This document shows positions 1-32,038 of a stretch of DNA of 32,038 nt, one piece after another; position 1 is the first letter of the stretch, and the number at the start of each line of letters is the position of its first letter. The DNA is taken from positions 1-32,038 of IMG/VR virus record IMGVR_UViG_3300046464_000007. One strand, written 5' to 3'. The DNA is from a virus. The notes beneath the pieces were generated by a model. That model searched no databases. It saw nothing but the letters and a program-made list of their open reading frames with translations, and was not told where the DNA came from. A program made the translations under genes and the position numbers.

Positions 1-1031
1 AAAAACAATTTCCGCTGACCATTAATACTTAGTAAACGGCTATTCACTGCGTTTATTCTATCTCTAACCAGAGCATGGGACTTCTTGGCTTTTACCGCGA
101 ACCCTGCGTTCTGTAAGATCGACAAATCTGTACGACCACCTGCGCTTGTTTTGCGCTGTCTTGATGCTGGGTCTGGATAAACTATTATATGACGATTCGG
201 GTAACGGTCTTTTATCTCCGTAACCATCTCGTCAGTGTTCGACCCATAGATGACAATCTCGTCAACTGCATACAGCATCTCGCCTTTACGAATGCAGATT
301 ACGGCTGACATAGGGTCTAAGTTAAAATCCATACCAATATGTAGAGTACCATCATCCTTGCAATCAACGACAGATAGTTCTCTACTAAATGCATAATATA
401 TCAAACCGCTGTATGTCACAAACTCTGCACAGTATTCTTGATTAAATGTACGCTCATCAAGATCTATTTTAGCCGCTTCAACCTCTGATTCAGGAACATT
501 ACCACCCTGTAAAGTTGTATATTGAAAGCTTGACCAATTTGGTAGGTTATTAACACCAGATGCCCACAAATCATAAAAGTGGTTTCTGCCTTTCGGTGTG
601 CCAATAAAAAGTGCTGAACCTTCTCTATCTGATAATGACGGTCTAATTACTTCGTACCACGCCTCTGGTCGCATATCTGCAAATTCATCTAAAACCACAA
701 AGTCTAAAGCCCTGCCTCTTAAATTATTAGGTTTTTCGGCTCCTTTAAGACTGATAACTGATCCATTAATTAATTTGAGAGTTAAAGTACTTTCGTTAGA
801 CTTATTAATATATTCTTCAGGTATCGTATGAATTAACATATCCCATGCAATTTCTTTTGCAGATCCATAGGTTGGCGCTACATACCAGCAGTTTCTATTC
901 TTACCACTGACAGCCGCTTTAAGAAGTTCGCCTGTTGAGAGAAAGGTCTTGCCAAATCTTCTGCCAGCAACGCAGACACGAAAACGAGATTTAGAACAAA
1001 ATATCTCACTCTGCGGCTTGGTTAATTGCAT
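1..1031 (-). CDS. terL: Terminase large subunit, N-terminal 343 residues (runs off left edge)
   Basis: ATPase and nuclease that translocates concatemeric DNA into proheads. Seen: the gene starts at an ATG (1031-1029) inside the end of terS, overlapping it by 26 nt, and begins MQLTKPQSEIF. The Walker A motif AGRRFGKT lies at about residues 22-29, Walker B VVLDE at 112-116 and the coupling motif GTPKG at 144-148. The RNase H-like nuclease part begins with HIGMDFNLD (Asp235) and includes YPDP near 285. No stop occurs before the window edge. Base 1 corresponds to base 31941, and reading on from 31940 gives an exactly in-frame product of 402 residues, normal for this family. Identification is firm. 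Confidence 0.96.
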   Translation of the reverse strand, partial: MQLTKPQSEIFCSKSRFRVCVAGRRFGKTFLSTGELLKAAVSGKNRNCWYVAPTYGSAKEIAWDMLIHTIPEEYINKSNESTLTLKLINGSVISLKGAEKPNNLRGRALDFVVLDEFADMRPEAWYEVIRPSLSDREGSALFIGTPKGRNHFYDLWASGVNNLPNWSSFQYTTLQGGNVPESEVEAAKIDLDERTFNQEYCAEFVTYSGLIYYAFSRELSVVDCKDDGTLHIGMDFNLDPMSAVICIRKGEMLYAVDEIVIYGSNTDEMVTEIKDRYPNRHIIVYPDPASRQRKTSAGGRTDLSILQNAGFAVKAKKSHALVRDRINAVNSRLLSINGQRKLF

Positions 1032-3254: not shown

Positions 3255-3283
3255 ACTATCACCTGTATGTAATTAGTTGCTAC

Positions 3284-3312
3284 ATTGTACTACATATAAC
3301 TAAAAGTGTTAA
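3284..3312 (-). promoter_or_regulatory. Sigma-70-type promoter for the ParB-glycosyltransferase-terminase operon
   Basis: On the minus strand the -35 box TTAACA (3312-3307) and the -10 box TACAAT (3289-3284) each match consensus at five of six positions and are separated by exactly 17 bp. They precede the ATG at 3254 by a suitable distance. The -10 region also carries the pentamer ATGTA twice, a possible operator. The promoter overlaps the end of the 21-residue gene at 3309-3374. Confidence 0.65.
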
Positions 3313-3374
3313 TTAAATTCATCTTTTGCTATAGCGCATAAGGCAAGCAAGCAAAAAGCCATAAAAAACATCAT
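3309..3374 (-). CDS. Hydrophobic 21-residue micropeptide
   Basis: A short gene preceded by a strong ribosome site (AGGAGG seven bases from the first of two consecutive ATGs). The product begins MMFFMAFCLLALCAIA and ends KDEFN: a single hydrophobic segment with a short acidic tail, possibly a membrane peptide or a cleaved signal-like sequence. Nothing similar is known to me by function. The consensus-strength ribosome site is the main reason to accept so short a gene. A possible promoter lies just upstream (3398-3427). Confidence 0.5.
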   Translation of the reverse strand: MMFFMAFCLLALCAIAKDEFN

Positions 3375-3397
3375 AACTACCTCCTGTTTAGAGGCGC

Positions 3398-3427
3398 ATT
3401 TTATCTATATAAAACAACAAGTTGTAA
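3398..3427 (-). promoter_or_regulatory. Possible promoter before the 21-residue micropeptide
   Basis: On the minus strand, TTACAA (3427-3422) and TAAAAT (3403-3398) are separated by 18 bp in an A/T-rich stretch. The match is moderate and this genome is A/T rich, so chance resemblance is possible. Confidence 0.32.
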
Positions 3428-3498
3428 TGTTATTTTTGCATTAATCATATGCGTATAGTTAATAGTCCGTTGCGACCACCAGTGGACTAATCTGGCTC

Positions 3499-3518
3499 AA
3501 AAGGCGAGGGGTAGCCTT
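3499..3518 (-). terminator. Possible weak terminator after the 37-residue membrane protein
   Basis: On the minus strand AAGGC (3518-3514) pairs with GCCTT (3505-3501) across an eight-base loop and runs into TTTTG just after the stop codon of the small gene at 3522. The five-pair stem and short T run make it weak. A second dyad, TAGTCC/GGACTA (3463-3489), follows at once. Confidence 0.3.
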
Positions 3519-3521
3519 GGT

Positions 3522-3635
3522 CTATTTGTTTTTTTCTTCGTATCTTTTTTGTGCGTCTTGTAATAACAGCCATGCCCCTGATAATAATACTCCAAATACT
3601 GCTAATCCTATTACACCGATTACTATATCTAACAT
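3522..3635 (-). CDS. Small single-span membrane protein (37 residues)
   Basis: The product starts MLDIVIGVIGLAVFGVLL, a single hydrophobic span, followed by a charged cytoplasmic-type tail ending QKRYEEKNK. The ATG follows the upstream stop by one base (TAAT-ATG) and has a GAGGGCA ribosome site inside the end of the previous gene. Function unknown. Small membrane proteins of this shape are common in phage early regions. Confidence 0.6.
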   Translation of the reverse strand: MLDIVIGVIGLAVFGVLLSGAWLLLQDAQKRYEEKNK

Positions 3636-3636
3636 A

Positions 3637-6850: not shown

Positions 6851-7092
6851 TTTTGAGATAAAGTCATCGTGGTTTTGTGTCTGTTTCTGTTTCTATAAGT
6901 ACCTGCGTTAAAGTTTTCTAAAATCAACTCTTCATCAGTGCAGATTGATGAACCATTTAGTCGGTATCTAATAGTACTAGAAGATTGTCCAGAAATTTCT
7001 GCTAACTCTTTCACAGTGTAATAACGACCGTTGACTAGATCTTTTGACTTACCCTCATATAATATTTTCTTGGCTTTAAATAACTGTGCCAT
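6826..7092 (-). CDS. Small helix-turn-helix protein
   Basis: An 88-residue basic protein. Residues from about 22 onward (YYTVKELAEISGQSSSTIRY) form a helix-turn-helix, followed by an Arg/Lys-rich tail (YRNRNRHK). I chose ATG 7092 because GGAGAG precedes it by four bases; an in-frame ATG at 7104 lacks such a site. It is probably a DNA-binding regulator or accessory factor of the replication genes on either side. Confidence 0.7.
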   Translation of the reverse strand: MAQLFKAKKILYEGKSKDLVNGRYYTVKELAEISGQSSSTIRYRLNGSSICTDEELILENFNAGTYRNRNRHKTTMTLSQKWLKKKLI

Positions 7093-7447
7093 GTATCTCT
7101 CCATCGTAGTAATATCCTAATTTATTAAGATAATACTCTTTCATCATTTCTCGATCTTCAGGATCAACCCAGCTTATGTCTGCCAACTGCATCTCAGGGG
7201 TTTTATCTCTTAGCCTGTTTTTCTTTTTAGCTAGTGGTGAGCTACCTCCTCGATCTTGCGACCTTGATAACCAACGAACAACGAAGCTCTTTATACCCCT
7301 AGCCGTCTTTCTTTTTGTAGGATTAGCGTCTAACCAAGACTCCATCGCCATTAATTCTTGATGTACATCTACCGCTGGATATGCTCTTTGCCAAGCAATA
7401 ATGTCCGTTTCTTTTGGTTGCCATACCTCTTTAGTGTTTAATAACAT
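7076..7447 (-). CDS. Replication initiation / helicase-loader-like protein (short form)
   Basis: A 123-residue protein with the segment VDVHQELMAMESWLDANP followed by KRKTARGIKSFVVRWLSRSQD. This is the characteristic C-terminal module of phage O-like or DnaT-like replication proteins and helicase loaders. The usual N-terminal winged-helix or DNA-binding domain is missing here and could be supplied by the 88-residue HTH protein that follows. A GGGG ribosome site precedes the ATG. With no helicase or polymerase in the genome, it probably recruits host replication proteins. Confidence 0.72.
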   Translation of the reverse strand: MLLNTKEVWQPKETDIIAWQRAYPAVDVHQELMAMESWLDANPTKRKTARGIKSFVVRWLSRSQDRGGSSPLAKKKNRLRDKTPEMQLADISWVDPEDREMMKEYYLNKLGYYYDGEIHGTVI

Positions 7448-7456
7448 AATTACCCC

Positions 7457-7963
7457 CTATTGGAATTTGTGTTGCATTAACCTTGCCCATAAAGTTTCTA
7501 TTTTAAATAATTCATCATGCTTTAAATATAGCCGGTCGCCATAACCAAAATTGTGACGATGACAATCAGTCTGAAAACTACCTCTATCCATCCAACCATT
7601 AACACGCATTTTGTTTGCATCATCAGTGCGTCCAACAAGTATGGCTATTTGTGATTTAAATTTTTCCATAGAATCGAAAATCAAATTTCCGTACTCATCA
7701 TTAGTAAATTTAACATCTATAGTAAAATCACCGAACCATAAATCTACACCTCCGTCTGTTGCAACATTTACGGTCGGCAAATCTAAGTTAAACAACCTAG
7801 CAATCGCAAACTCTGCTTTGAATCCGTAAACATTAGCCTCAGTTCTTGATTGTTTTTTATTATCAAGCCTTGGCGCAAATCCTTGCATCTCACAAAGTTT
7901 AACAGTGTCAGCACCCATTAATTGGCAAGTGTGAGCATCTTGTTTGCTTAACCTTAATATCAT
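7457..7963 (-). CDS. PD-(D/E)XK nuclease-like protein
   Basis: A 168-residue protein with the PD-(D/E)XK arrangement: Glu51 in GFKAEFAIARLF, Asp74 in TDGGVDLWF and the IDVKFT motif (Asp83, Lys85). Family members are structure-specific or replication-linked endonucleases in phages. The ATG has a consensus AGGAGGT site five bases upstream, and the gene is the first one after the 345-bp non-coding control region. It could act as a resolvase; the exact substrate is unknown. Confidence 0.72.
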   Translation of the reverse strand: MILRLSKQDAHTCQLMGADTVKLCEMQGFAPRLDNKKQSRTEANVYGFKAEFAIARLFNLDLPTVNVATDGGVDLWFGDFTIDVKFTNDEYGNLIFDSMEKFKSQIAILVGRTDDANKMRVNGWMDRGSFQTDCHRHNFGYGDRLYLKHDELFKIETLWARLMQHKFQ

Positions 7964-8308
7964 ATAAACCTCCTACAGTTTTAAATTTACTATGGCTCGG
8001 TCAAGCCTCGCCTGTTGTTAAAATAAATTTCTTGATATTTCTTGATTTTATTAAAAGCACTTTAAACCCTTTTACTTGTCAGAGTAAAATTTACGATCTG
8101 AGGGCTTTGCGACTCAGCGGTTAGTTCGTATTCGTATCGGATATCCAACCTATCCACAATCTAAAACCGATTAAATTGTAGGGCCATGTCTGGAGGGTCA
8201 ACGGCGATCATTCTCGCTCATCACGCTCTGACGTTTAATTTCAGGAGTCCGTCAGCCTCAAGCCCGAATACTTTGTTAATTAAAAAACATCTCAACAAAA
8301 ATGTACAC
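7964..8308. other. 345-bp gene-free segment; candidate replication origin or structured RNA/control region
   Basis: No credible reading frame occurs here. It contains two tandem copies of ATTTCTTGAT (8027-8036, 8037-8046) in a very A/T-rich part. It also has a seven-bp perfect dyad TTTTACT/AGTAAAA (8070-8089), a CTGAG/CTCAG hairpin (8098-8117), a DnaA-box-like CTATCCACA (8150-8158, one mismatch to TTATCCACA) and a CTGACG/CGTCAG hairpin (8228-8255). The middle (about 8090-8260) is richer in G+C than its surroundings. It sits between a Cro-like regulator and replication genes, a usual place for a phage origin. A non-coding RNA is the main alternative. Confidence 0.5.
8027..8046. repeat. Two tandem ATTTCTTGAT repeats
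   Basis: Two perfect, directly adjacent 10-bp copies lie within an A/T-rich stretch of the non-coding segment. They could be duplex-unwinding repeats of an origin or binding sites for the neighbouring regulator. Confidence 0.6.
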
Positions 8309-8521
8309 TTACACTATATAATTAAAAGTTATAAAAGCATCTACGCTTATATCTAAAGCATCACATACACGCTGTATCGTGTGCAGTTTCATGTTAGATT
8401 GAGTGCGCCAGCGCAAAACTTGTTGAGGAGATGTTTTAGCTATTTTAGCAAACTCTACACTGCTAATACCTTTCTGTTCTTGAGCGGCTATAACGCATTT
8501 GCCTACGTGAATTAATTTCAT
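8309..8521 (-). CDS. Cro/CI-like helix-turn-helix regulator
   Basis: A 70-residue protein with a complete HTH (about residues 18-40: GISSVEFAKIAKTSPQQVLRW) and the typical C-terminal helix IQRVCDALDISVDAF of the XRE/Cro family. No oligomerisation or cleavage domain is present, so it resembles Cro rather than a full CI repressor. Upstream lies a GTCACT/AGTGAC dyad (8551-8569), a plausible self-operator, and downstream lies the gene-free segment. In a genome without an integrase, it probably times early transcription rather than maintaining lysogeny. Confidence 0.82.
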   Translation of the reverse strand: MKLIHVGKCVIAAQEQKGISSVEFAKIAKTSPQQVLRWRTQSNMKLHTIQRVCDALDISVDAFITFNYIV

Positions 8522-8585: not shown

Positions 8586-8608
8586 GCCCCCCGAAAGGGG
8601 GGCTTTTT
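8586..8608 (+). terminator. Strong intrinsic terminator in plus orientation
   Basis: GCCCCCC and GGGGGGC form a seven-bp G/C stem with a GAAA tetraloop, followed by TTTTT on the plus strand. Read on the minus strand there is no T run after the stem. It would therefore stop plus-strand transcripts, although all recognised genes lie on the minus strand. Confidence 0.75.
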
Positions 8609-31763: not shown

Positions 31764-32038
31764 CAAGTCCACCTAGTCGGTTGTGGTGTATCGTATTCTG
31801 TGCGAACAGGGAACAAATATTCTACCAAGTAACCGAGGGCATCGTTCATATGATCAAAGCCATCTTTATTTGGTATGCTTGTTCCTTCCTTGTATGTTTG
31901 TCGTTCTAAGCTCTTAATCGTTTGCTTACACTTAGGACTAAAAAACAATTTCCGCTGACCATTACTGCTTAGTAAACGGCTATTCACTGCGTTTATTCTA
32001 TCTCTAACCAGAGCATGGGACTTTTTGGCTTTAACCGC
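31763..32038 (-). CDS. terL: Terminase large subunit, C-terminal part (enters from right edge)
   Basis: This is the other end of the gene at 1-1031. Residues from the right edge read AVKAKKSHALVRDRINAV and continue to the nuclease C-terminal motif DGFDHMNDALGYLVEYLF, whose Asp in NDAL is a probable third metal ligand. The overlap with bases 1-98 encodes the same protein except one Ile to Ser change (ATT to AGT). The TGA stop overlaps the portal start. Confidence 0.93.
   Translation of the reverse strand, partial: AVKAKKSHALVRDRINAVNSRLLSSNGQRKLFFSPKCKQTIKSLERQTYKEGTSIPNKDGFDHMNDALGYLVEYLFPVRTEYDTPQPTRWT
31941..32038. repeat. 98-bp terminal overlap with bases 1-98
   Basis: Bases 31941-32038 match bases 1-98 at 94 positions; the differences are at window positions 25, 27, 84 and 93. 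The segment lies inside terL. It implies a circular or circularly permuted map, with strain variation at the join. Confidence 0.9.

Follow-up and report, generated by a model that had tools for sequence, protein, structure and literature searches.

A covarying structured RNA encoded in a gene-free segment of streamlined uncultured phage genomes

Results and discussion

A structured RNA in the gap at 7964-8308

The gap at positions 7964-8308 of the window (the whole stretch of DNA analyzed, a 32,038-bp IMG/VR virus record) is almost certainly the gene for a structured RNA of about 200 nucleotides, read from the minus strand. Judged by comparison of sequences, this RNA is conserved across many uncultured phages through compensating mutations, and it appears, from the promoter-like words that precede it, to initiate its own transcript and to head a replication/accessory operon. 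Our best explanation as a whole (a structured RNA, carried on its own transcript at the operon head and acting in cis on transcription) is one that we hold to be about evenly balanced between right and wrong. The segment was originally predicted to be gene-free and to be either a DnaA-type origin or a folded RNA. No credible open reading frame lies in it (the longest spans 56 codons on the wrong strand, and 31 on the coding strand), and the folded-RNA half of that reading is strongly supported by a covariance test across relatives. A conserved short protein, named in the original prediction as a finding that would speak against it, was considered and rejected, as every frame of the RNA strand is interrupted by stops in the window copy.

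The elements of the RNA, all on the minus strand, are as follows.

8064..8271 (-): structured RNA domain, from the 5' end of P1 to the 3' AAAGGGUUU; supported by covariation
8265..8271 (-): P1 5' strand, GTATTCG; two-sided changes at 6/7 pairs, 99.1% of cells paired
8128..8134 (-): P1 3' strand, CGAATAC; covaries with the P1 5' strand
8261..8264 (-): P2 5' strand (3' strand at 8182-8185); 2/4 pairs covary, the last pair being UA, GC or UG
8228..8255 (-): P3 hairpin, CUGACG...CGUCAG; two-sided changes at 6/6 pairs
8190..8225 (-): P3b hairpin with conserved loop UUGACCCU; 3/3 pairs covary (UGG/CCA, CGG/CCG, GGG/CCC, AGA/UCU)
8154..8182 (-): P4 hairpin with UCGG loop; helices 7 and 8, 9/9 pairs covary
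8139..8150 (-): short hairpin with loop UUNGANAU; closing pair GC, AU or UA, 46 two-sided changes
8098..8117 (-): P5 hairpin, CUGAG...CUCAG; 5/7 pairs covary
8070..8089 (-): P6 hairpin, UUUUAC...GUAAAA; covariation at 1/3 modelled pairs, pairing in 90.2% of cells, alignment less certain
8064..8072 (-): 3' AAAGGGUUU, which may pair with the P3b loop as a pseudoknot; 94.8% of cells paired, no two-sided change

The evidence for the RNA is comparative, since the folding energy of the single sequence is unremarkable (z = -0.93). RNAalifold, applied to 37 sequences aligned by MAFFT, returned 38 pairs, with two-sided changes in 28 of them; because the larger alignment (A3) was fitted to the covariance model, this calculation on a plain MAFFT alignment serves as the independent check. 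Across the 96 distinct sequences of A3, 97.0% of pair cells are paired (35-47% in slid controls) and two-sided changes occur at 34 of the 47 pairs; 805 cells carry such changes versus 206.5 in shuffles (0/500), so that compensatory base-pair changes exceed the control. Cells holding G-U number 154 and those holding A-C only 10, an asymmetry that identifies the minus strand as the one encoding the RNA.

The P3b helix is also seen in an AAG/CUU form. Its loop is invariant in alignment A1 and altered in a divergent type (L158), where it has changed without a matching change at the 3' end; the loop and the 3' AAAGGGU could form a pseudoknot, but the two never covary. The loop UUNGANAU looks T-loop-like. 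At 8203-8221, beside P3b, there is a 19-nt insertion with a small hairpin of its own, found among the aligned copies in the window phage only; two further loci (L002 and L032) are identical to the window phage across the gap. The short dyads of the original prediction correspond mostly to stems of the structured RNA.

Distribution among uncultured phages

With a covariance model the RNA is recognized in far more than 100 phage contigs of IMG/VR. Searching with the product of the nuclease-like gene beside the gap gave 33 loci; many of them align with the gap DNA over long stretches, at approximately 68-100% identity. The pattern GTTGACCCTCCN{2,6}CATRGCC was found in at least 119 viral stretches, a pattern for the downstream hairpin in at least 120 and a pattern for the divergent form in 47; the stretches overlap between these searches, and the counts are thus not additive. 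Three forms of the RNA were seen, namely a dominant one, a long one with an extra UUCG hairpin, and a divergent one.

The covariance model built from 37 sequences (R1) scores the window RNA (L001:1600-1812, window about 8063-8275) at 180 bits (E = 8.7e-47), a score obtained by construction because L001, like all 37, was used to build the model. R1 also matched 100 of 100 loci in a set that was chosen for holding the RNA and that supplied the 37 sequences, whose scores are again obtained by construction. More independent are the loci found only through the second hairpin described below, most of which match R1 (E from about 1e-57 to 1e-9); divergent members score 72-95 bits. Each of the 14 records searched holds one copy of the RNA.

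The family is missing from Rfam 15: neither the window nor 12 relatives gave a match at the gathering score (sub-threshold matches only, E = 0.8-5.5), and a group I intron and a HEARO RNA were accordingly dropped as candidates. A blastn search of INPHARED and PLSDB returned no copy in a cultured phage or plasmid, and the covariance model found no RNA in any of six phages that are cultured or named, HTVC111P and EXVC031P among them. Among cultured phages the nearest terminases belong to pelagiphages (53%), three of which were examined and lack the RNA; from these nearest cultured phages we infer an aquatic origin. For host assignment, a search of genome contigs with the RNA pattern gave no match; relatives of the downstream replication-type protein (C0, below) in genome contigs come mainly from Lachnospiraceae and from other bacterial genomes, without the RNA.

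Genomic context in two lineages

The genes around the RNA in the window are the following.

8309..8521 (-): gene for a Cro/C1-type helix-turn-helix (HTH) protein, upstream of the RNA; Pfam HTH_26, E = 4.9e-7; cluster C2
7969..7975 (-): Shine-Dalgarno sequence TAGGAGG of the gene at 7457-7963, identified from sequence
7457..7963 (-): nuclease-like gene in the exchangeable slot of the window phage; PHROG 18407, of unknown function, E = 1.7e-6
7076..7447 (-): C0, replication-type protein, constant in the downstream operon; domain shared with a 245-aa protein of locus L337

The neighborhood originally proposed for the gap therefore holds, with a Cro/C1-type HTH gene at 8309-8521 and a replication-type gene downstream. 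The product of 7457-7963 looks PD-(D/E)XK-like by eye (GGVDLWF...IDVK). C0 itself has no Pfam or NCBIfam match; at L337:4563-5300 (Polynucleobacter) its domain makes up the C-terminal part of a protein of 245 aa that may be replisome-organizer-like and is followed by a gene with an AAA+-like P-loop.

In the first lineage, to which the window phage belongs, the gene order is SSAP, YqaJ exonuclease, SSB-like, HTH, RNA, slot, C0, wHTH and NinB. The slot between RNA and C0 holds zero to three exchangeable genes, in which HNH, C5 methylase, nuclease-like genes and small open reading frames alternate (HNH_3 and C5 methylase by Pfam), and the occurrence of the RNA is indifferent to the identity of the next gene. 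Among the best 80 of 512 matches to C0, the RNA lies upstream of C0 at every locus with enough upstream DNA, an association that applies to this group only because the best 80 are the closest relatives. The orientation of the RNA tracks the downstream operon even beside divergent upstream genes (L023, L077-L079 and L083).

In the second lineage terS and terL flank the RNA, which is on the opposite strand, and a variable slot on the same strand follows about 800 nt past the RNA, containing ArdC in some members. This lineage and the window phage share homologues of Sak, YqaJ, the SSB-like protein and NinG, and the two lineages differ in their terminases and in the position of the RNA. In carrier phages nearly all other bases are coding, and the retention of the RNA in two lineages that differ in terminase and in where they carry it suggests that its function is kept under strong small-genome pressure.

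Promoter and transcript start

Two promoter-like words precede the RNA in the window.

8302..8307 (-): -35-like hexamer TGTACA, a word at fixed distance upstream of P1
8279..8284 (-): -10-like hexamer TTTAAT, 17 nt from the -35 and 7 nt before P1

Of 78 distinct upstream regions, 39 have TTTAC or TGTAC with its first base 35-37 nt before P1, and the regions with either word show a -10-like logo at -13 to -8; because these regions were picked for the -35 word, only the -10 part of the logo is independent. In 33% of upstream regions the highest promoter score sits 4-9 nt ahead of P1, compared with 6.8% of shuffles, while the mean promoter score barely exceeds the control. A sigma70-like promoter at this fixed distance from P1 implies that transcription should start at the first base of the RNA. 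In the terS/terL lineage TATAAT stands 6 nt before P1.

The sigma70-like (class A) promoter is missing from about half of the upstream regions, and repeats and a pyrimidine tract are found there instead. Loci such as L036, L151 and L165 have direct repeats of short words (for example GATAACGTC and GTCTTATA) together with a CCTTTCTT tract in the interval from the HTH gene to the RNA; these are candidate operators for the HTH protein.

The linker and a second conserved hairpin

Between the RNA and the downstream gene are two further elements.

8013..8063 (-): AU-rich linker holding the tandem 10-mers; neither its length nor its sequence is constant
7994..8012 (-): second conserved hairpin, GGCGAGGCUUGACCGAGCC, with tandem GA/GA; two-sided changes at 5/6 pairs, counted on 11 distinct forms chosen for variety

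The linker measures 50-90 nt among relatives, in which the second hairpin stands immediately 5' of the Shine-Dalgarno sequence of the downstream gene. A fixed regular expression finds this hairpin behind 72 of 98 RNAs, and more divergent forms were recognized by eye. The hairpin at 7994-8012 would serve the ribosome-binding site of the mRNA.

The position of the RNA as a leader, its T-loop-like motif and the mutually exclusive partners that alignments suggest for the conserved AAAGGG would suit a ligand-sensing, riboswitch-like leader, in which AGGG alternates between the P3b loop and the CCCU of P5. We consider this improbable, given that the downstream genes vary widely with no common pathway, that the linker to the Shine-Dalgarno hairpin is of variable length, and that a terminator is absent.

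The replication-origin reading

The other half of the original prediction, a DnaA-type origin, did not survive, as the skew, DnaA-box and conservation tests all failed. Cumulative GC skew, proposed as a check, shows a single sign all around the window and, among nine relatives, in almost every one (the exception being small mixed values near the RNA in a genome of the second lineage, G006), although skew is a weak test of an origin here because nearly all genes lie on one strand and skew follows the coding direction. The DnaA-box consensus TTWTNCACA has no exact occurrence in the window, and occurrences elsewhere are scattered. The DnaA-like word and the tandem 10-mers that had been reported do exist: the first (CTATCCACA, at about 8151-8159) belongs to P4/J4 of the RNA and lacks conservation, and the second (ATTTCTTGAT twice, at 8027-8046) were set aside as iterons, being located in the variable linker and common only to very close relatives (L064 and L085).

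That the RNA nonetheless marks an origin, or is an origin transcript acting as a primer in the manner of ColE1, we regard as highly improbable. It does adjoin the replication operon, and at one locus (L035) two DnaA-box words stand behind it; beyond the neighborhood of replication genes we found nothing here that points to a role at an origin. The skew is unchanged at the RNA in the window and its close relatives, the second lineage has the RNA away from replication genes, and selection acts on RNA pairing, on one strand.

Proposed action in cis, and a trans-acting alternative

We propose that the molecule would function as an RNA where the operon begins, affecting the transcription machinery in cis by processive antitermination or an anti-Rho activity as the put RNA of phage HK022 does, with the effect that any gene in the slot behind it would be expressed. 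Taken alone, this mechanism is tentative, and we put it somewhat below an even chance. The put RNA is approximately 70 nt, forms two stem-loops and is present at both early promoters of HK022 (PMC9378689). The likeness to putL/putR lies in the phage origin of the RNA, in its position close to where an early transcript begins (in class A loci, as far as promoter prediction goes), in its indifference to the next gene and in a mode of action that, here too, would need no phage protein. The RNA described here differs in being about 200 nt and single-copy, and its antitermination is proposed by analogy. Counting against a put-like device, which is expected to overcome terminators, is the missing excess of intrinsic terminators in the downstream operon (6 found versus 4.1 expected, both strands).

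The main rival, nearly as likely as action in cis, is that the RNA works in trans on a host or phage partner, having been cut from its transcript in the AU-rich linker (first lineage) or ended near an oligo-T tract (second lineage). Its indifference to the downstream gene would be expected of such a molecule, as would an AU-rich linker ahead of a second stable hairpin; in the second lineage the RNA is solitary between terS and terL, with TATAAT before P1 and T-rich tracts approximately 150 nt after it, and its first same-strand gene is about 800 nt off, beyond an antisense terS, an arrangement that also fits a free-standing RNA. Against it, the orientation in the first lineage follows the downstream operon, and the scan detected no intrinsic terminator past the RNA (same strand for L060 and L035, either strand for L104), so that the oligo-T tract is terminator-like by eye only. 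A more far-reaching version, in which a new phage RNA class with a T-loop and a possible pseudoknot, present in two lineages, would by itself reprogram the host's transcription or one of its defence pathways, we consider rather unlikely.

Other known RNAs offer partial parallels. HEARO, the omega RNA of IscB, adjoins HNH nuclease genes, and the present RNA likewise lies beside such genes; unlike HEARO, its neighbors are varied short HNH/nuclease-like proteins, methylases and unrelated open reading frames. GOLLD RNA occurs in phages and is much larger than the RNA here, which has no Rfam match to it. GOLLD constitutes a large structured class of unknown function that forms RNA-only oligomers (PMC12286853). 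The manA and wcaG motifs (RF01745 and RF01761) come mainly from marine metagenomes and cyanophages and lie in likely 5' untranslated regions (PMC2864571), resembling the present RNA as structured RNAs of metagenomes and phages; they precede metabolic genes, unlike the RNA here, which again lacks an Rfam match. Whatever its mode of action, a heavily covarying RNA family is added to streamlined uncultured phages, together with predictions, namely that a transcript should start at P1 and that specified mutations should compensate one another.

Other features of the window

The gap at 7964-8308 had been described as the only one longer than 300 bp; a second, at 3255-3636, measures 382 bp, and within it 3522-3635 (-) may encode a 37-aa membrane-type protein. 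The termini of the window (1-98 and about 31944-32038) are near-identical, with a few mismatches, and the terminase reads across the junction, so that the map is probably circular; in a relative (G001) the ends repeat exactly over 99 bp. Finally, a strong intrinsic-terminator-like hairpin (GCCCCCCGAAAGGGGGGC TTTTT) occurs at 8586-8603 (+), where the genes are on the minus strand, a sign that the HTH gene may be crossed by an antisense transcript.
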